NCBI GenBank assembly: GCA_016791365.1
Contig: JAEUMT010000053.1
Location: 1 to 62,251 of the forward strand
Length of the DNA stretch: 62,251 bases
Reading direction: 5' to 3'
Source: Hyphomonadaceae bacterium
GTDB taxonomy: Bacteria; Pseudomonadota; Alphaproteobacteria; Caulobacterales; Aquidulcibacteraceae
Made by a program: the position numbers and the translations under genes. Shown one piece after another: positions 35,179-46,906 of this stretch. The first letter of the stretch is position 1, and each line of letters starts with the position of its first letter. The notes below the pieces were generated by a model, which was given only the letters and a program-made list of their open reading frames with translations, had not been told where the DNA came from and did no database searches.

Positions 35179-35922
35179 TTAGAGCCGCCAGTCCACGGCT
35201 TCGGAGGTCGTCGCGCCGGCGCGGCGGCGGAGCAACTCGCGCAAGCGATCGATGTCGAGGATCCAAAGCTCGCGCTTGTTCTGCCGGATGATGCCTTCGC
35301 TGGCGAGCGCGCGCAGCTCGCGCGTTACGGCCTCGCGCTGCGCGCCGATGGTCGATGCAATGGCCTCGTGAGTCGGCGCCTCGCGGATCAAGATGCCGTT
35401 ATCAGTCTGCTCGCCGGTCGACGCCAATCGCAACAATTCCGCGTAGAGGCGAAACCGCATTTCCAAGGCGGCGAGTTCAAAAACACGGTCGGTGAGCGCG
35501 ACTACGGTGCGCGCCAGATGCGCCGCGACCACGGTGGCGAAGGCGCCGTCGCGCGCCATTAATCCGAGGAACGCTTCTTTCGGGCACTCGGCCACGAGGC
35601 CGTCCGTTTCCGCGTCGATTGAAACCGATCGCGGAGTTTCAGAGATCGCCGCGATTTCTCCGAAATGGCTGCCCGCGGCGAGGAGCCGGAACGCCACTTG
35701 CCGGCCGAGAAGCGTCTCCAATCGCGCGCGGTAGTCACCTTCAATCGCGAAATACACGTGATTGTCCGTGTTGAGATGCGAGACGATGAGATCGCCTGCA
35801 CTTACGGTTCGCCAGTTCAGGGCTTGCGCGAGCGTATCGAGATCGCCGTCACCCACGTCCTGCAGGATGCGGATTTTGCGCAGCATTTGCCGCGCCTGGA
35901 TCGGATCAGGTTTCCGGTTCAT
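35179..35922 (-). CDS. Crp/Fnr family transcriptional regulator
   Basis: 247 aa. An N-terminal cyclic-nucleotide-type beta-roll (residues ~20-125) has V-Y-F-A-I-E-G-D-Y and G-S-H-F-G-E-I-A-A-I-S-E-T-P-R-S; no Cys cluster of FNR type. After the dimer helix comes a winged HTH with T-H-E-A-I-A-S-T-I-G-A-Q-R-E-A-V-T-R-E-L. Diverges from the LuxR-type gene, with a shared 117-nt region that includes a 24-bp palindrome. It could regulate that gene and the borosin-like locus behind it, which is inference from position. Confidence 0.9.
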   Translation of the reverse strand: MNRKPDPIQARQMLRKIRILQDVGDGDLDTLAQALNWRTVSAGDLIVSHLNTDNHVYFAIEGDYRARLETLLGRQVAFRLLAAGSHFGEIAAISETPRSVSIDAETDGLVAECPKEAFLGLMARDGAFATVVAAHLARTVVALTDRVFELAALEMRFRLYAELLRLASTGEQTDNGILIREAPTHEAIASTIGAQREAVTRELRALASEGIIRQNKRELWILDIDRLRELLRRRAGATTSEAVDWRL

Positions 35923-36009
35923 TGGCCTTACGTTCCCAACATCCTGTCCGTCTGTCGCGACGAAAAGCCAAAGATGCTGTGCGATATTTCACATAGCAGT
36001 TCAGCAACG

Positions 36010-36039: not shown

Positions 36040-37038
36040 ATGCCCTGCGAAGCGCGGTTGTTTGCCTTTGAATCCTGGATGGAAGCGGCGCTCGGCGGCG
36101 GCGATTGGTTCGCGCCATTGCGCAAGAGCGCCGACCTGCTCGATGCGCGCAATGTGATCGTGCTGTGGAACGATTTTGCAGGGGGCGGCCTGACGCTTCT
36201 TGCTGCACCCGACGCGCCTTCGGACTTCATTCGAATATGCATGACCGTTCCGCCGGGTGAACGCTCCGGGAGCGTGCAGGTAGAGAGCATCGCGCGGGCA
36301 TGGTGGCAACGCGTTCGCGCCGATGGCGAAATCGAAGGTGAGCTCACGCTGTTCGCGCTGGCGGATGTTGCGGGCGATCAGAGCTTGTTGGGTGAAATCG
36401 CCGCAGTAGCGATGCGCGCGGTGACCGCCAGGATCAAGCTGAACGCGGTGCGCGCGACATCGGCGCTCAAGACCGCCGCTTTCGATCAATTGCCGTTTGG
36501 CATGGTCATTATCGACAAACACATTCGTATCGCGGAGAAAAACGAGGCGTGCCGGGCCTTGTTTGCACGCTCAGACGGCCTTGGCGCGTGTCAGGAGAAG
36601 TTGTCGTGCCATGAGCCGGCCGACCAGTCCGCGCTGATGTCGGCGATTGAACGCGCTTTGTCCGGCGACTTGAACGCGGCTGTGCTGAAGGTTCATCGCG
36701 CTGGCGGCGCGCAACCGTATGTGGTGCGCGTGGTGGCGCCCCGCGCGGGGCCGCGCGATCATTGCCTGCTGATGATTGTGGATCCGGATGACGAGCCCGC
36801 GGCGGGGTCCGAGATTTGGCGCGCGATGTTTGATCTCACGGATTGTGAGCTCATCATCGCCGAAGGCCTGGTGTCTGGTCGCCGCATTACCGAGATTGCC
36901 AACCAGCGTGGCGTTTCGATTGAAACAGTGCGCTCACAGACCAAACGCATGTTCGAGCGCTTGAATGTTTCGAGCCAGGCCGAGGCGGCGGCGCGCCTCA
37001 GCCGATCGGCGCCATTCAAGCTGGCGTCCCTAACTTAA
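36040..37038 (+). CDS. LuxR-type transcriptional regulator with PAS-like sensor region
   Basis: 332 aa from ATG at 36040, which has GGAG seven bases upstream; the open frame extends far upstream but that part covers the crp gene in antisense. Residues ~150-260 look like a PAS domain (F-G-M-V-I-I-D-K-H-I-R-I-A-E-K-N-E-A). The C-terminal ~65 residues form a LuxR HTH: L-T-D-C-E-L-I-I-A-E-G-L and I-A-N-Q-R-G-V-S-I-E-T-V-R-S-Q. Lies 72 nt before the amine oxidase gene on the same strand and is the best candidate regulator of that locus. Confidence 0.87.
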   Translation: MPCEARLFAFESWMEAALGGGDWFAPLRKSADLLDARNVIVLWNDFAGGGLTLLAAPDAPSDFIRICMTVPPGERSGSVQVESIARAWWQRVRADGEIEGELTLFALADVAGDQSLLGEIAAVAMRAVTARIKLNAVRATSALKTAAFDQLPFGMVIIDKHIRIAEKNEACRALFARSDGLGACQEKLSCHEPADQSALMSAIERALSGDLNAAVLKVHRAGGAQPYVVRVVAPRAGPRDHCLLMIVDPDDEPAAGSEIWRAMFDLTDCELIIAEGLVSGRRITEIANQRGVSIETVRSQTKRMFERLNVSSQAEAAARLSRSAPFKLASLT

Positions 37039-37072
37039 AATTGTATTTATGATGTAGAACAACCTGTAGTTT

Positions 37073-37084
37073 AGTGCTAGCACT
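37073..37084. promoter_or_regulatory. 12-bp perfect palindrome before the amine oxidase gene
   Basis: agtgctagcact is a perfect palindrome 26 nt before the GTG start at 37111, in an AT-richer stretch (37035-37085) that is the only promoter-like gap before the locus. Possible operator; no clear -35/-10 pair seen. Confidence 0.4.
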
Positions 37085-37110
37085 CGCTTTCGGTTACGCC
37101 GGGAGCAGCA

Positions 37111-38697
37111 GTGCTGGACGTCGCGATCATCGGTGGGGGCGTTGCGGGTTGCTATTGCGCCTACCGGCTCGCCGCGGAGCGAGGCGGGATCGCGCTTTTC
37201 GAAGGAAGCGGACGCATAGGCGGCCGGCTCTGGTCCGTGCCCGTGGCCGGCGCGGACGGTCCGGTCGCCGAGATCGGCGGCATGTTCTTTCGCCGCAATC
37301 AGCAGAACGTAAGCGCCCTGATCGAGCATCTGGGGCTCAAGCATGAGCCGGTGAACTTCAAACGATCCGGCCAGTTCGCACGCGGCACGTTTTTCGAGGA
37401 CGCTGATTTCACGTCAGACCGGCTGCCGTTCAAACTGGACGCGGGAGAGCGATCACCTGGTCCAAGCGCGCTTTTGATCCATACGCTCGAACAGATCGTT
37501 CCTGGCGCTGTCGAACTGTGGCCGATCAATCGAGAGAAGCCTGCTTCCGCGCAGGCGACGTTCGATCGGCTGCGCGCCGTTCGTCACCATGGGCGTCCGC
37601 TCCACGTCTATGGGCTCTGGAATGTCCTGGCGGATGTGATCAGCAACGAAGCCTATGCCTTGCTCACGGCTGTGTTGGGCAGCGTGTCGATGCTTCGCAA
37701 CGTCAATGCGTTCGATGGCGTTTGGAGCTTGCTGCACGAAGTGGGTGACGGCGCCGGCAGTGCGCTGTGCGGCGGATATCAGCAGCTGCCGATCGCGCTT
37801 CGCCTTGCCGCCGAGCGTGAAGGCGCCGCGACACATCTGAACCGCAAGCTCCTTGGCGTTTCACGTGCCGGCGGGCATTTCCGGCTGCGCTTTAGCGGTT
37901 CTGACGATGCAGACATTGAGATCGAAGCGCGCCAGGTCATCCTCGCCTTGCCGCAACTGCCGTTGCAGCACTTGGCGCTGAGCGACGATCTCTTCGTCGA
38001 TGCGCGTGTTTTCCGGCATGCGTTGGATCGCGCCGTGCTGCCGATGCGCTCGTGCAAGATTTTTCTTACCTATGATCAGGCCTGGTGGGGAGAGGGCGGC
38101 GCAGACGAGGTGTCCGCCACGTACGCCGATCTGCCGATGCAGCAATGCTATCGCTGGAGCAATTCGGGTGGCGGCAGTCCTGCGCTGCTGATGGCGGCTT
38201 ACGCGGACGATGTGGGCGCCACGTTCTGGGCGCCGTTGGCGCGACCGCGGCAGGATGTTGACGGCGCACACGATCTCGCCGCGTCGGCGGCCATGGTGGA
38301 AGCGGTGCAGCGGCAACTGACGAAGCTGCGCAAAGGCGATGCGCCGCCGACGCCGGCGGGCGCGCTCTATTTTGATTGGAGCGCAGCGCCTTTTGGCGCG
38401 GCGTGGCACGGCTGGGCGCCTCATTTCGAAAGTTGGAACATTCGGCCTTTTATGCGCCGGCCGAATCCAAGCCTCGACCTCTTCATATGCGGCGAGGCGT
38501 ATTCCCAGCGAAACGGCTGGGTCGAAGGCGCACTTAACTCAGCGGAGCTGGTTCTCGAACAGCTCGGTCTCACGCGGCCGAGCTGGATCAATGATCCTGA
38601 TTTTCAGTTCGAAGCCGGCGTTAGAGGAGTAGAAAATGACCACAGCAACACTTCGGATGTACAACGCTTTGGCGCAAGACATGGCGCTGCAGCGTAG
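37111..38697 (+). CDS. FAD-dependent amine oxidase of the borosin-like locus
   Basis: 528 aa, GTG start with GGGAG upstream. N-terminal dinucleotide fold I-I-G-G-G-V-A-G, then E-G-S-G-R-I-G-G-R-L as the flavin amine-oxidase fingerprint. The C-terminal F-I-C-G-E-A-Y-S-Q-R-N-G-W-V-E-G-A is the FAD-closing motif. Monoamine/L-amino-acid oxidase superfamily; substrate unknown. The last ~20 codons overlap the peptide gene in another frame, so the two are translationally linked. The position suggests that it modifies the peptide or an amine derived from it; that is inference. Confidence 0.85.
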   Translation: MLDVAIIGGGVAGCYCAYRLAAERGGIALFEGSGRIGGRLWSVPVAGADGPVAEIGGMFFRRNQQNVSALIEHLGLKHEPVNFKRSGQFARGTFFEDADFTSDRLPFKLDAGERSPGPSALLIHTLEQIVPGAVELWPINREKPASAQATFDRLRAVRHHGRPLHVYGLWNVLADVISNEAYALLTAVLGSVSMLRNVNAFDGVWSLLHEVGDGAGSALCGGYQQLPIALRLAAEREGAATHLNRKLLGVSRAGGHFRLRFSGSDDADIEIEARQVILALPQLPLQHLALSDDLFVDARVFRHALDRAVLPMRSCKIFLTYDQAWWGEGGADEVSATYADLPMQQCYRWSNSGGGSPALLMAAYADDVGATFWAPLARPRQDVDGAHDLAASAAMVEAVQRQLTKLRKGDAPPTPAGALYFDWSAAPFGAAWHGWAPHFESWNIRPFMRRPNPSLDLFICGEAYSQRNGWVEGALNSAELVLEQLGLTRPSWINDPDFQFEAGVRGVENDHSNTSDVQRFGARHGAAA

Positions 38698-38860
38698 CTT
38701 CTCCCTGGACAAGGAAAGCATCATGCGTGCGTTCGGCCTCACCGGCGCAGAGCGCGAAGCCGTGAAGACCGCTCAGGACCGCGAGATCAAGAAGATGCTG
38801 GGCAAGCCGCAAGTGTCGTGCTTTCTCCTCGGGCTGACGAGAACTTCTGTCAGCGAGTAA
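38636..38860 (+). CDS. putative split-borosin precursor peptide
   Basis: 74 aa. ATG at 38636 has a near-ideal AGAGGAG six bases upstream, inside the 3' end of the oxidase gene. Residues ~8-56 are helical with Y-N-A-L-A-Q-D, E-S-I-M-R-A-F-G-L-T and A-E-R-E-A-V. This is the LigA-like fold and spacing of the borosin-binding domain of bacterial precursors such as SonA (comparison from memory). Residues ~58-74 (P-Q-V-S-C-F-L-L-G-L-T-R-T) are a short hydrophobic then polar tail, the expected core to be N-methylated. The methyltransferase gene is 2.8 kb downstream on the same strand. Alternative: a stand-alone LigA-like protein. Confidence 0.78.
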   Translation: MTTATLRMYNALAQDMALQRSFSLDKESIMRAFGLTGAEREAVKTAQDREIKKMLGKPQVSCFLLGLTRTSVSE

Positions 38861-38878
38861 GCGCTAGTCCCAACCGGC

Positions 38879-38896
38879 GGCCTCTCGCGGGAGGCC
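38879..38896 (+). promoter_or_regulatory. hairpin covering the Shine-Dalgarno of the large regulator gene
   Basis: ggcctc (38879-38884) pairs with gaggcc (38891-38896), the latter containing the GGGAGG that serves the ATG at 38900. It lies between the precursor and regulator genes, so it could lower translation of the regulator or stabilise a short precursor transcript. Confidence 0.5.
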
Positions 38897-38899
38897 AAG

Positions 38900-41656
38900 A
38901 TGCATTCTCAAGGGCCGCCGGTCGGGTATCTCCTCGCTGACATCGAAGCGAGCACGGAGCGCTGGGAGCGAAGTCCGGCGCAGATGCAGGTCGCGGTCGC
39001 GCGCCTCGATGTCCTTATTGAAGATGTTGTCTCCCGGAACGGCGGCAAAATCCAAGACCGTTCAGGCGATGGCGTCTTTGCGTTGTTTACAACCGGCAAT
39101 CCTTTGCAATGCGCGCTCGACATGCAGCTTGAAATGCAGCGCACCGATTGGAGCGCCGTCGGAGGGTTGGACCTCCGCATCGGCGTTCACGCGAGCATCA
39201 ACAGTGCGCCAGGGCAACTTGACCGCGCGGCTGTGAATCGCGGTGCGCGCATCATGGCAAGCGGATGGGGTGGCCAGATCGTTGTCAGCCGCGACGCGGC
39301 CCGGCTTTACAAAGCTCCGCGCGGCGCGACGCTCACCGATCTGGGTCTTTGCCGATTTAAGGGCGTTGGTGAGGCGATACACCTGGCGTCGCTGGGACAT
39401 CCAGAGCTTGTGCGCTCTGAGTTTCCGCCTCCGCGTTCGCTGCAGTTCAACGGCAACGCCATCGACGCGTTGGCGATCCCGATGTTCGGGCGCCAAGCCG
39501 AACTCGGCGATATCCTGCACAAGCTAAAGCAGGTTCGCCAGCTGACGATTACGGGTCCCGGCGGCAACGGCAAGACCCGCCTTGCGTTGCAGGTCGGCGC
39601 CGAAATCACCGCACGCCAGCCGGTTTGCTTTACCTCGTTGGCGGGCATGTCGCGCGACACTGACTTGCCCTCTGTAATTGCCGCGGCGCTGCGGTTGGAG
39701 AGCGTGGCCGGCCGCAGCCTCGAAGAGCACTTGATCGATTACCTGCGCGACAAGCAGATGCTGATCGTGCTCGACAACGCAGAGATTGTCGCGGGACGGG
39801 CGGCTTTCATCGACACGCTGATCGGTTCATGCCCGCAGCTGGGGGTGTTGGCGACCAGCCGCGAGCCGTTGGGCGTTGAAAACGAGCTTATTGTGCGTTT
39901 GCCGGGCATCGATCTCTTGGATGCCAACGGACAAATCAGCAAATCGTCACCCGCGGTTCAGTTGTTTGTTCACGAGGCGAAGCTGAAGGATCCGGCTTTT
40001 GAGTTGGCGGATCAGGACCTGGCCTGCTTCGAAGAAATTTACGCCGCGGTGCACGGGTCGCCGCTTGCCTTGCGGCTGATTGCGCAATGGACCAGCCTGC
40101 TCTCGCTCGGTGAAATTCTGGAGCGCCTGCATGAAAGCCTGGCTTTTCTCTCCGATCCGAGCGTCGCGCAGCCTGGTCAGAACCTTCGTGGTGTGTTCGA
40201 GGGCTCCTGGACGTTGCTGAGCCAGCAACAGCAAGCGACTCTGGCGAAGCTTTCGGTTTTTGTTAAAGCGTTCGATTTGACGGCGGCCGCTCATGTGACG
40301 GGCGCTGATCTTGCCGATTTCCTGACACTGGAGCGCAAGGGACTTATCGTCCGCGCCGCCAATGGCCGCTTCGCGATGCATGCCTTGGTGCGCGACTACG
40401 CCGCCGAGCGGCTGGAGGCCAATTCCGCGCAAGCCAAAGCAGCGCTTCGGCAGCATGCCACCTATTATTTGGAGGCCGTCCGCGCCTGCATGGAGGGGAC
40501 GCAACTTCCTTCGCGCGGCGCGGCGAGCGAACAATTGCGCCAGGACATCGCTGAAATCCGGGCAGCCTGGGTGCGGGCAATTGGGTTCAAAGCAAAGGCG
40601 CTGCTTCAAAACGCCATCGAGCCTTTGTGCTACTTTCTCTACACGCGCTCGATGTTCCGCGACGCCGTGGATATCTTCGGCGTCGACATCGCGAACGACG
40701 GGCTCCGGCGCCATGCGGCCGCGATCCGCGCCAACTTCCTGGTCCACCAGGGTGATGCGGAAGGCAGCGCCGCCGCGGCGTCGAGCGCCCTCGCCGGACC
40801 GGGCGCTTCGCAGCTAGCGAAGGCGCATGCCAATCAGGCTCTTGGAAATCTCGCGCATATGCGCGGCGAGTTTAAGCAGGCCCACACGCACTACATGCGT
40901 GCTGCGGCCATTCGCGAGAAGGTCGGCGATCTCAGGGGCTTTGCCTACGCGAGTATCGCGTTGGGCGCATTGCATCTGTTGTTCGAACGCGTTGAGACGG
41001 CGCGTGAGCATATCAAGTCCGGATATCGCATCGCGCGCCAGGTCGGCGATCCTTTCGGCATGATGGTGTCGCACCTCTATGCGGGCGATCTCGCCGCCGC
41101 CGAAAACCGCTTGGAGGACGCCATGAGCAATTACGAAATGGGCCTTGGTGTCGAGGATTCGACCTCAAACACGCAATTTCGGGCCATGTTTGCGCGTCGA
41201 CTTGGGGCGCTGTTCGCTTTGAAGGGCGATGCGGCCGGCGCCCTGGCGCACCATCAGCAGGCGCATGATCTCTCCCGCGACGTCGGCGATCAGCGCACGC
41301 GCGCTCATGCGCTGATCGAGATGGGCAATGACCTCAGATTGATGGGCGATCTGCCAAATGCGCGGATGGCGGTGGTGCGCGGCATACGCCTGAGCATGAA
41401 CCTTGGCATGCAACCGGCGTTGCGGCGCGGCTTGCTTGAGTTGGCCTATATCGATCTAGCGCTGGGCAATGTGGAGGCGGTTCATCGCTCAGTGCGGGCT
41501 TTGGAGCGCGCCGATCTTGGCGATCTCCGGTCATCTTACGATGCGCTGGTGACGCAGCTGAAAGGCGGGCGCCCGGCGAACATGGCGCCGGTGACGGTGC
41601 AGGATCTGCTCAGCGAACTCGTGGCCGAAGCGGAAGTGGATACGCTCAAATTGTGA
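38900..41656 (+). CDS. class III cyclase-like/STAND ATPase/TPR signalling protein
   Basis: 918 aa. Residues 1-175: adenylate/guanylate cyclase homology domain; the two metal Asp are present (L-L-A-D-I-E-A-S-T and R-S-G-D-G-V-F-A). Residues ~195-460: STAND NTPase with Walker A G-P-G-G-N-G-K-T and Walker B M-L-I-V-L-D-N-A-E, then T-S-R-E-P-L-G-V as sensor. From ~560 to ~880: TPR-like helical repeats (A-L-G-N-L-A-H-M-R-G-E-F, A-L-I-E-M-G-N-D-L). No HTH seen. Such proteins couple a ligand to ATPase-driven signalling. Its stop overlaps an alternative GTG start of the methyltransferase gene, so it belongs to the same operon. Confidence 0.85.
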   Translation: MHSQGPPVGYLLADIEASTERWERSPAQMQVAVARLDVLIEDVVSRNGGKIQDRSGDGVFALFTTGNPLQCALDMQLEMQRTDWSAVGGLDLRIGVHASINSAPGQLDRAAVNRGARIMASGWGGQIVVSRDAARLYKAPRGATLTDLGLCRFKGVGEAIHLASLGHPELVRSEFPPPRSLQFNGNAIDALAIPMFGRQAELGDILHKLKQVRQLTITGPGGNGKTRLALQVGAEITARQPVCFTSLAGMSRDTDLPSVIAAALRLESVAGRSLEEHLIDYLRDKQMLIVLDNAEIVAGRAAFIDTLIGSCPQLGVLATSREPLGVENELIVRLPGIDLLDANGQISKSSPAVQLFVHEAKLKDPAFELADQDLACFEEIYAAVHGSPLALRLIAQWTSLLSLGEILERLHESLAFLSDPSVAQPGQNLRGVFEGSWTLLSQQQQATLAKLSVFVKAFDLTAAAHVTGADLADFLTLERKGLIVRAANGRFAMHALVRDYAAERLEANSAQAKAALRQHATYYLEAVRACMEGTQLPSRGAASEQLRQDIAEIRAAWVRAIGFKAKALLQNAIEPLCYFLYTRSMFRDAVDIFGVDIANDGLRRHAAAIRANFLVHQGDAEGSAAAASSALAGPGASQLAKAHANQALGNLAHMRGEFKQAHTHYMRAAAIREKVGDLRGFAYASIALGALHLLFERVETAREHIKSGYRIARQVGDPFGMMVSHLYAGDLAAAENRLEDAMSNYEMGLGVEDSTSNTQFRAMFARRLGALFALKGDAAGALAHHQQAHDLSRDVGDQRTRAHALIEMGNDLRLMGDLPNARMAVVRGIRLSMNLGMQPALRRGLLELAYIDLALGNVEAVHRSVRALERADLGDLRSSYDALVTQLKGGRPANMAPVTVQDLLSELVAEAEVDTLKL

Positions 41657-41664
41657 GGTTCGGT

Positions 41665-42447
41665 ATGGCGCGTGGAAGTCTGATTGTTGTCGGCACGGGC
41701 ATCAGAATTGGCAATCAGTGCACGATCGAAGCGAAGCATCATATCGTCACCGCTGATGTTGTGTTTGAGGTTGTAGGCGATGAGCTGGCGCAGGAGTTTC
41801 TGCGATCGCTCAATGAGAACGTCGTGTCCCTCCAGCACCTCTATGGCGGCGGCCGTGCGCGGAGCGACACGTACAAGGCGATGATCGAGATCATCCTTAG
41901 CGCCGTTCGGGAGGGTAAGCGCGTGTGCGCGGCGTTTTACGGACACCCTGGCGTGTATGTGTATCCGTCTCACGAGAGCGTGCGTCGCGCGCGCGAAGAG
42001 GGATACGAGGCCGAGATGCTGCCGGCGGTGTCCGCCGACGCATGTGTGTTCGCCGATCTTGGCTTTGATCCTGGCTGGCTCGGCTGCCAGAGTTTCGAGG
42101 CGACGGACTTTGTGATCAACGCGCGAAAGTTCGATCCGACGGCGGTGCTGATACTGTGGCAGATTGCGCTGGTGGGAGATCGCAGCCTGCGTGTGTTCAG
42201 TTCCGATCCGCGCCGCATTCGGTTGTTGGCCGAGGTGCTGATGGAGCACTACCCGCCCGATCATCCGGTCACCGTCTATTGCGCGGCGACATTGCCCATG
42301 GGCCACGCCGATGTGCAAACACTGCCGCTGTCGCGATTGGATGAGGCTGTCATCACGCAGGAATCGACTTTGGTCGTGCCGCCGTACGGCGAGGCCAGGC
42401 CATCGGCCGATCGCCTTGCTCTGATGGAAGCGCGGCTGGGCGCCTGA
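41665..42447 (+). CDS. borosin-type peptide backbone alpha-N-methyltransferase (SonM/OphMA-like)
   Basis: 260 aa from ATG at 41665, with GAGG seven bases upstream; a GTG at 41653 overlapping the previous stop is possible. Tetrapyrrole-methylase fold: V-V-G-T-G-I-R-I-G for SAM, F-Y-G-H-P-G-V-Y-V-Y-P-S-H, and M-L-P-A-V-S-A-D-A-C-V-F-A-D-L-G. The last two are strongly conserved in borosin methyltransferases. Tyr60, Arg66 and Tyr70 line up, from memory, with the catalytic Tyr-Arg-Tyr set of SonM. The enzyme N-methylates backbone amides of a separate precursor; the likely substrate is the 74-aa peptide encoded at 38636. Confidence 0.9.
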   Translation: MARGSLIVVGTGIRIGNQCTIEAKHHIVTADVVFEVVGDELAQEFLRSLNENVVSLQHLYGGGRARSDTYKAMIEIILSAVREGKRVCAAFYGHPGVYVYPSHESVRRAREEGYEAEMLPAVSADACVFADLGFDPGWLGCQSFEATDFVINARKFDPTAVLILWQIALVGDRSLRVFSSDPRRIRLLAEVLMEHYPPDHPVTVYCAATLPMGHADVQTLPLSRLDEAVITQESTLVVPPYGEARPSADRLALMEARLGA

Positions 42448-42450
42448 AGG

Positions 42451-42537
42451 TGGTGCGAGCGGCGGGAGTTGAACCCGCATAGCCTTGCGGCCTACGGATT
42501 TTAAGTCCGCTGCGTCTACCAGTTTCGCCACGCTCGC
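42451..42537 (-). tRNA. tRNA-Leu (anticodon TAA)
   Basis: The minus strand folds as a class II tRNA: acceptor gcgagcg / cgctcgc, discriminator A, encoded CCA, TAA in the anticodon loop, a long variable arm (gccgcaaggc) and gttcaactc in the T arm. Its 3' end lies 3 nt from the methyltransferase stop. tRNA 3' ends are common insertion points for mobile DNA, but no att repeat was found. Confidence 0.96.
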
Positions 42538-42727: not shown

Positions 42728-44647
42728 ATGGAAAGTGGACGGCGCTCTGGCCTCATCGCCGGGTCGGCAGCGGTGCTGGCTGGGGTCTTGCTTGCCGGCG
42801 CGGCCATGCCCGCGGAGGCGCAAACCCAGTCCAACGACGCGCTGGAAACGGAATTGGACGCGCTCTCACTTGAGCAATTGAGCGAAGTCGAGGTGACCTC
42901 GGTCTCCGGCAGCGCCCAACCCGTGGGGGAGGCGCCCGCCGCGATCTACGTCATCACCTCCGACGACATCGAGCGTGGCGGAATCCGCAGCATTCCCGGC
43001 GCCCTTCGTCTCGCCCCCAATCTGCAAGTTGCACGGATCGACGCTTCCACATTCGGGGTCACCGCGCGGGGCTTCAACCAATCAAGCGGCACGGCGAACA
43101 AGTTGCTCGTCCTGATGGACGGCCGCATCGTTTACACACCGTTGTTCTCCGGCGTGTTCTGGGACGAGCAGAACGCGATCATGGAAGACCTTGATCGCAT
43201 CGAGGTGGTGAGCGGACCGGGCGGGAGTTTGTGGGGATCGAACGCCGTGAACGGCGTCATCAACATCGTGTCCCGAAACGCGCACGAGACCCAAGGGTTG
43301 CTTGTGACCGGCGGCGCCAGCGACGCAGCGCAAGCTTTGGGGGTTCGCTATGGCGCGCGCTTCGGCGATGCCGGAGCGGTTCGCGTATATGGGCTTGGTC
43401 TGCGGCGGGCGGTGAATGAGCCGGCCGAGTGGCGCAACATGCAGGCGGGGTTCAGGGCAGACTGGGGCGACGCGCGTGATGCGCTCACGCTGCAGGGCGA
43501 TGTTTACACCGGCGATCAAGATCAGTTGCCCGGGCAATTCTCCGACACGACAATCAGCGGCGGCAACATTCTCGGGCGGTGGACGCGACGCTTCAGCGAT
43601 GCTTCCGCGTTTCAAGTACAGGCGTACGTCGACCGCACGCAGCGTCATATCTCCAGCGGCATTCGCGCCGACGTCGACGCCGCAGCGATCGACGCTCAGT
43701 ACAATTTCTCACTGGGCTCGGCGCACCAGATTGTCCTCGGCGCCGGCGCGCGCGTGACCAGTGATACGTTCACGCCGGGCCCAGGGACGGTGTTTCTCGA
43801 TCCGGACTCGCGAACGCTGCAGACTTACAACGTATTCGCGCAAGACACGGTGACGCTGTCGCCGTCGCTGGAGCTGATCGCGGGCTTGAAGCTCGAAAAC
43901 AATTCGTATTCCGGGCTTGAGTATATGCCGAGCGCCCGATTGGCCTGGCGGCCAGATCCTAACGCGCTCGTATGGGCGGCCGTGTCGCGTGCCGTGCGCA
44001 CGCCATCGCGCTTCGATAAAGACCTCATCAACGGAGTGACGTTTACGGGCGGGCCGGACTTCACATCGGAAGAAGTCGTCGCTTACGAGCTTGGTTATCG
44101 CGCCCAGCCCGATGATCGTTTCTGGTACTCGATCTCGGCCTATTACAACGTTTATGACGATCTTCGCACGGTTGAAGGCACGACGGCGTTTGTGTTTCCG
44201 CTTCAAGTGCGCAACGGCATGCATGGCGAGACGTACGGCATCGAGGCATGGGGAAGCTACGCCGTGACCGATTGGTGGCGTTTGAATGCCGGGCTGTGGC
44301 TGCTGGAGAAGGATTTGGCGCTCGACGCTGGTAGCACGGATGTGTTTGGCGTTGGCTTCGCCGGCAACGATCCGGATGTGCAGGCGTCGCTGCGTTCGCT
44401 CATGGATTTCGGCGAACGGACGCAGTTCGATCTCGCAATTCGTTACGTGGGCGACCTGCCCAGCCCGAGCGTGCCGTCCTATGTCGGCGTGGACGCCCGC
44501 ATCGGATATCGTGTGACGGATCGCTTGGAGCTATCGATCGCGGGCTACAATCTGCTGGATGAGGGGCACGTCGAATTTATCAATCCGTCTTTGCCGCCGC
44601 GAGAAACGTCACGATCATTCTTCATAAGCGCCCGCTGGAGGTCGTAA
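42728..44647 (+). CDS. TonB-dependent receptor of a receptor/YfiR/kinase operon
   Basis: 639 aa from ATG at 42728. Signal peptide to A-E-A-Q, then L-S-L-E-Q-L-S-E-V-E-V-T-S-V-S, the start typical of the receptor branch that travels with YfiR genes. Plug with V-S-G-P-G-G-S-L-W-G-S-N-A-V-N-G-V-I-N-I and a barrel ending in F-F-I-S-A-R-W. Likely a sensor-transporter for a small ligand. Followed after one base by the YfiR-like gene. Confidence 0.92.
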   Translation: MESGRRSGLIAGSAAVLAGVLLAGAAMPAEAQTQSNDALETELDALSLEQLSEVEVTSVSGSAQPVGEAPAAIYVITSDDIERGGIRSIPGALRLAPNLQVARIDASTFGVTARGFNQSSGTANKLLVLMDGRIVYTPLFSGVFWDEQNAIMEDLDRIEVVSGPGGSLWGSNAVNGVINIVSRNAHETQGLLVTGGASDAAQALGVRYGARFGDAGAVRVYGLGLRRAVNEPAEWRNMQAGFRADWGDARDALTLQGDVYTGDQDQLPGQFSDTTISGGNILGRWTRRFSDASAFQVQAYVDRTQRHISSGIRADVDAAAIDAQYNFSLGSAHQIVLGAGARVTSDTFTPGPGTVFLDPDSRTLQTYNVFAQDTVTLSPSLELIAGLKLENNSYSGLEYMPSARLAWRPDPNALVWAAVSRAVRTPSRFDKDLINGVTFTGGPDFTSEEVVAYELGYRAQPDDRFWYSISAYYNVYDDLRTVEGTTAFVFPLQVRNGMHGETYGIEAWGSYAVTDWWRLNAGLWLLEKDLALDAGSTDVFGVGFAGNDPDVQASLRSLMDFGERTQFDLAIRYVGDLPSPSVPSYVGVDARIGYRVTDRLELSIAGYNLLDEGHVEFINPSLPPRETSRSFFISARWRS

Positions 44648-44648
44648 C

Positions 44649-45188
44649 GTGCGACTGGCGTCCGCCATCGCTATGCTTGTGACGGCGGCGCTGATGGGCG
44701 CCGCGCCCCCGGCGCGTGCGCAGACTTCCGAAGAATCCGTGAAGGCCACTTTCGTCTCGCGCTTCATCTCGTTTGTGACGTGGCCGCCAATTGAAGGCGA
44801 TGCGGCCAACGCCCCGGTCACTCTCTGTGTGATTGGCGCGGAGCCATTTGCCAACGAACTGGAGCGGGTGGTTTCCGATCAACGCATAAATGGCAGGCCG
44901 TTCGATGTCCGCCGTATCGCCGAACCTGCCTCCGCCGCGCGATGCAACGCCGTTTATGTCGTCGGCGCGCGCGTTGAAGACACCTTGCGCGCGGTGCGTG
45001 GCCGTCCGGTGCTGACCATAACGGACGGCGCCGCGGGGGACGACGCGCGCGGGATCATTCACTTCGTCATTGTCGACCGTCGCGTTCGCTTTCACATTGA
45101 CGATGCACGCGCGGCCGAGGGCGGGCTGTTCATGAGCTCGCGGCTTCTGTCGCTTGGTGTCTCCGTGCGCCGTAGGCCTGCCTCATGA
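44649..45188 (+). CDS. YfiR/DUF4154 periplasmic protein
   Basis: 179 aa, GTG start one base after the receptor stop. Sec signal peptide ending near A-R-A-Q. Core: V-K-A-T-F-V-S-R-F-I-S-F-V-T-W-P, V-T-L-C-V-I-G, then R-C-N-A-V-Y-V-V and the final G-G-L-F-M-S-S-R-L-L-S-L, as in the YfiR family. YfiR in Pseudomonas inhibits a membrane cyclase (YfiN) through its periplasmic domain; here the partner is probably the CHASE8-type kinase encoded next, which overlaps by ATGA. Confidence 0.9.
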   Translation: MRLASAIAMLVTAALMGAAPPARAQTSEESVKATFVSRFISFVTWPPIEGDAANAPVTLCVIGAEPFANELERVVSDQRINGRPFDVRRIAEPASAARCNAVYVVGARVEDTLRAVRGRPVLTITDGAAGDDARGIIHFVIVDRRVRFHIDDARAAEGGLFMSSRLLSLGVSVRRRPAS

Positions 45189-46906
45189 AATGGCGCCCGC
45201 GCTTTCGGTTTGACCGGGACTTTGCCTTTATTGGCGCACTGATTGTGCTCGCTTTGGGTCTGGTCATCGGCGTCATCAATGAGAGCGCCGTGTCGGATCG
45301 CAAGTTGCGTGAGCTTGACACCGAGGCGAAGATTCTTGCGCAGAGCGTCGTGGCCTCTGTCATGTTCAGCGATCAGGTTGCGGCGCGCGAAAGCGCTCTG
45401 GCATTCTCCCAAAATCCGGAGGTCGACGCGGTTGGCGTTTACGAACAGGGCGGCGCGCTCATCGCCTCGTTCAGCCGGGAAGGGGCGGAGGCTTTGCCGC
45501 CGCGGCCCACCGCGCGCGCGTCCGCATATCGTGGCGGCTTTCTGGAGACGATCCGCACCGTGGAACGTGATGGTCAAACGTATGGCCATGTCTATCTGCG
45601 TTTGCGGCGCGAACCGCTCCTGGCGCGCCTTGGTCGCTATACGCCGCTCGCATTGCTCGTCCTGATGACAGCGCTTGTGCTCGCGGTGGCGGGCGCGGCG
45701 CAAGGCGCTTTGAAGCGCGCCTATGCGCAACTCGAACAGAAGGCCGCTGATCTTGAAGCGGCGAACAGTTCGCTGAAAGGCGAAATCGATCAGCGCAAGA
45801 GCGCGGAAGAGGCTCTGGTGCAGAGCCGAAAGATGGAAGCCATTGGGCAATTGACCGGCGGCGTCGCCCACGACTTCAACAATCTGCTGATGGTGGTTTC
45901 GGGCGGTTTGCGGATGCTGACGCGCCACGACGATCCCGAACGCCGGCGCAACATCATGGAGGCGATGCAGCAGGCGGTGGAGCGAGGCGCGGGTTTGACA
46001 CGCCAATTGCTCTCGTTCGCGCGCCGTCAACCGGTTGAGTTGCAAACCATCTCCGTTGCCGCGCGCATCAACGGCATGCGCTCGCTGCTCGAGCGTTCAT
46101 TGCGCGCCGACATCTTGCTGGACATCAACATACCCGAGGATCTGCCTCCGGTATCAACGGACCCAGGCCAGCTTGAGCTGGCCGTGCTGAACCTCTGCGT
46201 AAACGCGCGCGACGCTATGCAAAAGGGTGGCGTGATCACGATTAGCGCTCGTCTGGGTTCGCGGCTGAGAACGGTTGAAGTCCTGGTGCGCGATACCGGC
46301 GCCGGCATTCCGCCTGAAATCCTAAGCCGCATTTTTGAACCCTACTTCACGACCAAGCCGTTGGGCCAAGGCACAGGGCTGGGCTTGTCTCAGGTGTACG
46401 GCTTCGCCCAACAATCCGGCGGCGAGGCGCGTATCGAAAGCCAAGTCGGTTTTGGCACAACCGTGATTTTGTCCCTGCCGATCTCGTCCGAGCAGTTGAG
46501 TGCGCCTTCGCCGAATCCGCTACCTGTGGCGATCGAAGACCGCTCGCGTCATGTGTTGGTCGTGGAGGATGATGATCAGGTCGCATCGACGGTATGCTCA
46601 ATGTTCGAGGACCTCGGCCATCAGACGACACGCGCCAGCTCCGCCGAAGAGGCCTTGAGTGCTCTGCAGCGAAATCATGCGTTCGATCTCGTCTTCTCGG
46701 ACATTGTGATGCCGGGGGGACAGAATGGGATTGAGCTTGCTCGGGAATTGGAACGCATCGCGCCGAATTTGCCGGTGCTTTTGACGACCGGATATAGCGG
46801 GCACGAAGACGTTGACCCCGGGCGGCCGGTGCTTCGCAAACCATATGAGATCGGCGATCTCCGCGAGGCGCTCTTCAAGGTGCTGAACCGCAGAGCGGCC
46901 GCGTGA
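45185..46906 (+). CDS. hybrid sensor histidine kinase with CHASE8-like sensor
   Basis: 573 aa. Two transmembrane segments (~16-36 and ~156-178) enclose a periplasmic CHASE8-like region with A-K-I-L-A-Q-S-V-V-A-S-V-M-F-S-D. A coiled coil leads to the HisKA domain, with H229 in G-G-V-A-H-D-F-N-N. The ATPase domain has N-A-R-D-A-M, D-T-G-A-G-I-P and G-T-G-L-G-L-S. A C-terminal receiver has D506 in S-D-I-V-M-P. Phosphorelay output is unknown, since no separate regulator is adjacent. Last gene of the TonB-YfiR-kinase operon. Confidence 0.93.
   Translation: MKWRPRFRFDRDFAFIGALIVLALGLVIGVINESAVSDRKLRELDTEAKILAQSVVASVMFSDQVAARESALAFSQNPEVDAVGVYEQGGALIASFSREGAEALPPRPTARASAYRGGFLETIRTVERDGQTYGHVYLRLRREPLLARLGRYTPLALLVLMTALVLAVAGAAQGALKRAYAQLEQKAADLEAANSSLKGEIDQRKSAEEALVQSRKMEAIGQLTGGVAHDFNNLLMVVSGGLRMLTRHDDPERRRNIMEAMQQAVERGAGLTRQLLSFARRQPVELQTISVAARINGMRSLLERSLRADILLDINIPEDLPPVSTDPGQLELAVLNLCVNARDAMQKGGVITISARLGSRLRTVEVLVRDTGAGIPPEILSRIFEPYFTTKPLGQGTGLGLSQVYGFAQQSGGEARIESQVGFGTTVILSLPISSEQLSAPSPNPLPVAIEDRSRHVLVVEDDDQVASTVCSMFEDLGHQTTRASSAEEALSALQRNHAFDLVFSDIVMPGGQNGIELARELERIAPNLPVLLTTGYSGHEDVDPGRPVLRKPYEIGDLREALFKVLNRRAAA

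Follow-up and report, generated by a model that had tools for sequence, protein, structure and literature searches.

The stretch of DNA analyzed here, referred to as the window, is the whole 62,251-nucleotide (nt) contig JAEUMT010000053.1 of a Hyphomonadaceae bacterium (GCA_016791365.1), and the locus under study lies at positions 36040-42537. As judged from its sequence, the locus carries a precursor peptide with a borosin binding domain (BBD), a SonM-type methyltransferase (MT), and a co-inherited flavin amine oxidase (AO) whose gene overlaps that of the precursor. The inheritance of an oxidase and a second-messenger switch with borosin genes suggests a new variety within an established class of peptides.

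The locus and its precursor-methyltransferase pair

The genes and features, with protein lengths in amino acids (aa), are as follows.

35179-35922, minus strand: CRP/FNR-family regulator with cNMP-binding and HTH_Crp domains (Pfam, 6.2e-13 and 4.8e-14), divergent from the cluster
35978-35993, no strand: CRP-type operator-like site, TGTGCGATATTTCACA, inside the divergent CRP/LuxR promoter region
36040-37038, plus strand: PAS-LuxR (GerE) regulator (Pfam GerE, 5.5e-6; PAS_4, 2.2e-5)
37111-38697, plus strand: flavin amine oxidase with an L-amino-acid oxidase-like fold (Pfam Amino_oxidase, 1.1e-32)
38636-38860, plus strand: borosin precursor of 74 aa (SonA match, as single sequence and as profile)
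38900-41656, plus strand: 918-aa protein with a class III cyclase-like domain (about residues 8-175), a STAND ATPase, and TPR (Pfam)
41665-42447, plus strand: SonM-type backbone alpha-N-methyltransferase (PDB search)
42451-42537, minus strand: tRNA-Leu(TAA), the 3' boundary of the locus

The CRP-family gene at 35179-35922, just outside the 36040-42537 range, belongs to the gene set. A preliminary description of this DNA had placed the AO, the precursor, the 918-aa protein, and the MT correctly but left unnamed the PAS-LuxR regulator with which the range begins (36040-37038).

The MT matched SonM with an E value of 3.1e-63 and OphMA-type enzymes with about 2e-47 in the PDB search, in agreement with its earlier assignment to the SonM/OphMA type. 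Residues Tyr60, Arg66, and Tyr70 did not vary across the 13 aligned sequences and corresponded to Tyr58, Arg67, and Tyr71 of SonM, which the main text of PMC8429565 gives as active-site residues. The MT of the locus is a SonM relative with the catalytic set kept, and methylation activity is predicted for it.

The 74-aa peptide alone matched SonA with an E value of 5.6e-4, and an 18-row precursor profile matched SonA with 7.6e-16, bearing out the proposal that this peptide is the borosin precursor. The same profile weakly matched OphMA-type enzymes at residues 321-377, near the C-terminal region (1.5e-4 to 2.7e-4). The Pfam LigA match of the peptide scored 18.1 bits, under the cut-off of 25.3. 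In the one genome searched with the profile, that of the window, the peptide was the sole match. The BBD spans about residues 1-58 and the core about residues 59-74 (QVSCFLLGLTRTSVSE), and by these matches the peptide carries a SonA-type binding domain. N-methylation is predicted within the hydrophobic CFLLGL stretch, on backbone amides around Leu64 and Gly66 by the SonA alignment. In the five closest loci, the residues after the BBD read CF[LIVM]LGLTR; the cores of L019-L022 contain PPK or APK and have IVxVP-like ends, and those of the gammaproteobacterial loci contain NKLQFVIL, HMNFIVL, MCRLIIF, or AAVQLLIV.

The locus resembles the SonM/SonA pair of Shewanella oneidensis, as that pair is presented in the main text of PMC8429565, in having a separate MT with the Tyr/Arg/Tyr set, a precursor of about 75 aa, a helical BBD, and a hydrophobic core. 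Unlike in SonM/SonA, a cyclase-STAND gene here parts the precursor from the MT, and the oxidase overlaps the precursor. That main text contains no word that starts with oxidase, oxidoreductase, or cyclase, and according to it no type IV split borosin pathway had been linked to a final product as of 2021. The literature search found no paper joining a borosin with a FAD-dependent enzyme; the main borosin surveys of 2022-2024 were outside the comparison and may list an oxidase or cyclase. A ribosomally synthesized and posttranslationally modified peptide (RiPP) with a flavin L-amino acid oxidase was not among the matches listed in that search, and the amine oxidase in the portion of the RiPP literature retrieved belongs to a graspetide group and uses copper.

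The flavin oxidase and its association with the borosin genes

The closest solved structures of the oxidase were L-amino-acid, arginine, and lysine oxidases (nearest, 8jhe, 7e-63). In AncLLysO, the substrate carboxylate is bound by R76 and O2 by K387, and the R76A and K387A variants were without measurable activity; R89 of AncLAAO-N5 and R88 of AncLAAO-N4 share the role of R76, and R88A cuts activity by about three orders of magnitude (sections of PMC8405998 and PMC9814856). By counting along the 7eih alignment, R76 falls on the Arg of a GGMR motif; K387, whose replacement by Ala is visible in 7eii, corresponds to window Lys316. In comparison with AncLLysO, HTAncLAAO2, and a Pseudomonas arginine oxidase, the oxidase shares the fold (Foldseek TM score, 0.81), the FAD motifs, the O2-activating Lys, and a Gly-Trp motif. 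The FAD-binding GxGxxG and the C-terminal CGE...GW motifs were conserved across the aligned oxidases.

The O2-activating Lys was present in 18 of 18 aligned borosin oxidases and in 5 of 5 more (L131 and L135-L138). Unlike in AncLLysO, the carboxylate-clamp Arg was missing in 23 of 23 borosin-type oxidases, a count that takes in L138, whose MT lies off the contig; the window has Phe59 at this position. All 4 stand-alone alphaproteobacterial AOs aligned have the Arg, as do the 5 PDB sequences listed. By its residues, the oxidase has kept the FAD/O2 machinery and lost its grip on free amino acids, and a role as a free L-amino-acid oxidase is weakened by the Arg loss. Because the clamp Arg was lost and the O2 Lys kept in 23 of 23, another substrate, perhaps the peptide of the cluster, is suggested; the natural candidate would be the precursor, or another compound without a free carboxylate.

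The residues after the BBD in the 20 oxidase-linked BBD precursors included Cys in 9 and Lys or Arg in 16, and the core of L137, VDDAAVQLLIV, lacked all of Lys, Arg, Cys, His, and Met. As a general mechanism, the oxidation of a core amine or Cys that the preliminary description raised as a possibility is therefore not supported, and a conserved core side chain was rejected as a general AO target, since no reactive side chain is common to all cores. For the same reason, oxidation at a backbone or terminal position would be likelier than at a fixed side chain.

The precursor starts 62 nt ahead of the end of the oxidase gene, confirming the previously reported inclusion of the peptide start in the 3' end of the AO, and a Shine-Dalgarno-like GAGGAG was seen by eye just 5' of it. 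The precursor frame was preserved in the four closest relatives at 51 to 65% identity, and the overlap was 62 nt in all five loci (window, L014, L015, L016, and L131). Elsewhere the overlap was 4 nt (L037), or the two genes were separated by 3 to 11 nt (L029, L031, and L075) or 27 to 46 nt (6 gammaproteobacterial loci). In L017 and L028, which are the same locus from one genome in two collections and the sole single-frame case, the oxidase, BBD, and core lie in one 600-aa open frame (L028:5389-7191), within which an internal start is possible. A structure model of this fusion, built from an alignment of oxidase rows only, was confident in the oxidase part and had five helices in a C-terminal part of low confidence; five helices are also reported for the SonA BBD in the main text of PMC8429565. 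Further AO-BBD fusions in Wenzhouxiangella, apparent in tblastn with the fused L017 protein, were rejected because the matches crossed stop codons and the open reading frames showed separate genes.

In a survey of the order (299 genomes), an MT was detected at an E value of ≤1e-15 in 12 genomes, 11 of which belong to the genus of the window, its own genome included. Stretches of 15 to 19.5 kb were fetched around 12 further loci (L014-L025). L025, from another genus, had no oxidase in the fetched stretch; the window and L014-L024 make up the 12 same-genus borosin loci. In all 12 same-genus borosin loci, and in 9 gammaproteobacterial loci, the oxidase gene lay next to that of the precursor or the MT and on the same strand. 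The order oxidase, small gene or genes, and MT on one strand, with the precursor directly 3' of the oxidase, was found in the 12 same-genus loci and 6 gammaproteobacterial loci, 16 of which had a BBD-type precursor. The co-occurrence of peptide and MT in relatives, set beforehand as a refutation test, was conserved. Precursor and MT adjoined directly in L019-L022 and in 9 gammaproteobacterial loci.

Within the genus (30 genomes), the MT, the oxidase (E ≤ 1e-15), and the STAND-cyclase (E ≤ 1e-40) each occurred in 11 genomes, the same ones for all three, and the remaining 19 had none of them. If kinship is ignored, two such 11-of-30 sets would coincide by chance once in about 5.5e7 cases. In the class survey, the oxidase (E ≤ 1e-30) was detected in 5 of 385 genomes, and the four other than that of the window had no MT in the fetched stretches. 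The distances of the MT correlated with those of the oxidase (0.89, 18 loci) and the STAND protein (0.96, 11 loci), values that vertical descent alone could yield. On an 86-row MT tree, made by a quick method and with many open forks, the oxidase label required 2 changes compared with 16.7 after shuffling. L074, which groups with the gammaproteobacterial AO clade on this tree by a long branch, had no AO upstream and, by eye, a permease-like frame instead.

A scan of species genomes, in which the best 80 of 281 MT relatives were used, placed an oxidase within 5 kb of the MT in 13 loci; 7 of these had already been fetched, and 6 were from Wenzhouxiangella or another gammaproteobacterium. The 43 genomes of the Wenzhouxiangella family contained an MT in 20 and an oxidase in 10. 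In 9 of these 10 oxidase genomes, an MT that was full length and shared at least 50% identity with the query adjoined the oxidase on the same strand, so that the oxidase-precursor-MT set was found in 9 of 43 genomes, with one further oxidase at a contig end. The MTs of 34 to 44% identity in this family had no oxidase alongside, and in G706 a close MT was cut by the contig end with no oxidase in view. In the gammaproteobacterial branch, the AO tracks the close MT type, not the more distant MT paralogues. The association with the oxidase, first noticed at this single locus, is conserved and not incidental.

TIR-domain genes were also seen beside the oxidase at L019:5875-7323, L021:12143-13681 (with a C-terminal LuxR domain), and L020:12760-14211 (below the Pfam cut-off).

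The cyclase-STAND protein and the CRP-family regulator

In the 918-aa protein, previously described as a cyclase/STAND/TPR protein, the TPR match was above the Pfam cut-off (TPR_MalT, 2.6e-13), and the cyclase and STAND (NB-ARC/AAA) matches were below theirs. Four residues of the cyclase-like domain were invariant in 11 of 11 aligned sequences, namely, an Asp pair, an Asn, and an Arg, which we take to be the metal-binding and transition-state residues of class III cyclase catalysis. The best stretch of a match to the HaaT model covered residues 282-531 (1.9e-18), with a score of 66 compared with a cut-off of 1125. HaaT belongs to cyclophane RiPP clusters; unlike HaaT, the protein has a fused cyclase-like domain, and a CRP gene travels with it. 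What the preliminary description called a large signaling ATPase is more plausibly a cyclase-STAND sensor, possibly connected to the neighboring CRP regulator.

Of the 12 same-genus loci, 11 had a STAND-cyclase near the MT and 10 had a CRP-family gene there; in L020, L023, and L024, the CRP and STAND genes were neighbors on one strand. Among the genomes of the genus, the CRP gene (E ≤ 1e-15) was found in 10 of the 11 with an MT and also in 2 without one. Unlinked extra STAND copies occurred only in MT-bearing genomes of the genus (G000, G053, and G266), and the single copy of G112 was unlinked. Such unlinked STAND-cyclase copies are at L127, L128, L129, and L130, with a CRP gene adjoining in L128.

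The GE...R-S/T cyclic-nucleotide motif was present in 9 of 10 aligned CRP homologues (RS in 8 and RT in 1). The site at 35978-35993 was the only one in the window with at most 1 mismatch to TGTGA-N6-TCACA, for which 1.6 are expected by shuffling; 13 other sites had at most 2 mismatches. All 9 tested CRP/LuxR-side intergenic regions had a site with at most 2 mismatches (chance per region, 0.015 to 0.049, the sequences being related). These regions include those of the non-borosin loci L129 and L133, and the flanks of the sites differ. Further operator-like sites were found 5' of CRP in L022-L024, of STAND in L022, and of the oxidase in L020. The CRP gene and the conserved operator-like site suggest a putative cluster-encoded cyclic-nucleotide circuit. 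A divergent LuxR/CRP pair with an operator-like site was also seen beside a different gene set, encoding proteins of about 610 and 315 aa, at L129:6552-11133 and L133:6172-11134.

In the gammaproteobacteria, a protein of the 7TM-GGDEF type was directly 5' of the oxidase in 10 of 10 loci read (6 plus L135-L138; full Pfam check for L078). A GGDEF, class III cyclase, or STAND protein was within 5 kb of the MT in 31 of the best 80 loci. For the 52 loci in which 10 kb was available to each side, the counts at ≤5 kb and 5 to 10 kb were 13 and 2 for GGDEF, 10 and 1 for STAND, 6 and 1 for cyclase, and 9 and 0 for the oxidase; these ratios are descriptive, since the profiles derive from members of the very loci counted and related loci were entered separately. 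The 31 loci include those of Anaerolineae-type metagenome-assembled genomes (L038, L040, L050, and L103) and, weakly, of two archaeal ones (L036 and L088).

Interpretation of the locus

The locus as a whole is probably a type IV split-borosin cluster that is coupled to an oxidase and has a built-in cyclase/CRP circuit. In such a cluster, the MT would dock the helical domain of the precursor and N-methylate backbone amides of the core, and the oxidase would oxidize the precursor, or the core within it, with a backbone or terminal position as the likeliest target. A ligand would be sensed by the TPR/STAND part of the 918-aa protein, upon which the cyclase domain would make a cyclic nucleotide; nucleotide-bound CRP would then act at 35978-35993 on the divergent CRP/LuxR promoter and set expression. 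In the gammaproteobacterial relatives, a 7TM diguanylate cyclase would fill the signaling role. If the clamp-less oxidase acts on the peptide, it would be a new peptide-modifying flavoenzyme, and the co-inherited cyclase/CRP or diguanylate-cyclase module makes the purpose of bacterial borosins directly testable.

Several observations weigh against this explanation. Linked genes co-occur by traveling together, and the 11-of-30 counts take no account of kinship. L023 and L024 had no recognizable BBD between AO and MT, only short peptides (56 and 47 aa). G712 had its oxidase at a contig end and no MT match in the genome. A conserved peptidase or exporter was not among the shared families listed, not all of which were Pfam scanned. 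The fusion model showed no docking of the core on the oxidase, the core being disordered (pLDDT, about 30) and the BBD of low confidence. The cyclase-like domain scored 16.2 bits for Guanylate_cyc compared with a Pfam cut-off of 21.9, and in 11 of 11 such domains an Asp occupies what is presumably the adenine-selecting Lys position of adenylate cyclases; because of this score and this Asp, the cyclase product is uncertain, cGMP or other. L019 had no STAND gene nearby (one was elsewhere in the genome), and neither L019 nor L021 had a CRP gene within the fetched stretch. No operator was found 5' of the oxidase in L019 and L021-L024, of STAND in L020 and L021, or of CRP in L020.

The short peptides of L023 and L024 share a KIVHA motif, which occurs twice in L023.

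One alternative, itself unlikely, is a usual RiPP product, antimicrobial or metal related, with the STAND-cyclase and CRP forming an ordinary stress regulator that is there by chance. In its favor, the STAND/TPR part is similar to HaaT (a TPR protein of cyclophane RiPP biosynthesis, according to NCBIfam), there is a TonB receptor past the tRNA, and the LuxR/CRP pair also adjoins other gene sets (L129 and L133). Against it, the STAND-cyclase is absent from all 19 genus genomes without MT, and the TonB gene recurred in the other fetched loci only as one weak match, in L021.

In another unlikely reading, the enzyme would be an amino-acid or amine oxidase of the ordinary kind, serving H2O2 production or amine removal, that is merely coregulated and never acts on the peptide. 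Its fold and closest solved relatives, free L-amino-acid, Arg, and Lys oxidases, are those expected of such an enzyme, and the lack of a common core side chain and of docking in the fusion model would fit it as well. On the other hand, the loss of the clamp Arg in 23 of 23, the oxidase and precursor genes that overlap, lie 3 to 46 nt apart, or share one frame, and the tracking of one MT type by the AO argue for a tie to the peptide. A true precursor whose MT is inactive on it, or a decaying cluster, is very improbable: the 2.8 kb and one gene that separate precursor and MT in the window would fit it, but the catalytic residues are kept, the MT is 80 to 83% identical to those of the three closest loci and free of internal stops in all 12 genus matches, and the genome has a single cognate precursor.

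On a bolder reading, the oxidized, N-methylated peptide might itself be an intracellular or membrane-permeant signal rather than an antibiotic. It would be sensed by the TPR/STAND part of the cyclase whose gene lies between those of the precursor and the MT, with CRP activation by the cyclic nucleotide closing the loop; we offer this quite speculatively and consider it rather improbable. If it were true, coupling to second messengers would make peptide signals of many bacterial borosins, given the diguanylate cyclases beside related clusters.

The genes beyond the tRNA (TOL_0244-type TonB receptor, YfiR-like protein, and hybrid kinase; 42728-46906) were rejected as cluster members, since the tRNA intervenes and the sole TonB match in the 12 fetched loci was the weak one. 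The arrangement in which the MT ends about 14 nt or less from tRNA-Leu(TAA) was absent in L017-L024 and was found in the window and L014-L016. A palindrome, AGTGCTAGCACT, was seen by eye at 37073-37084, between the LuxR gene and the oxidase.

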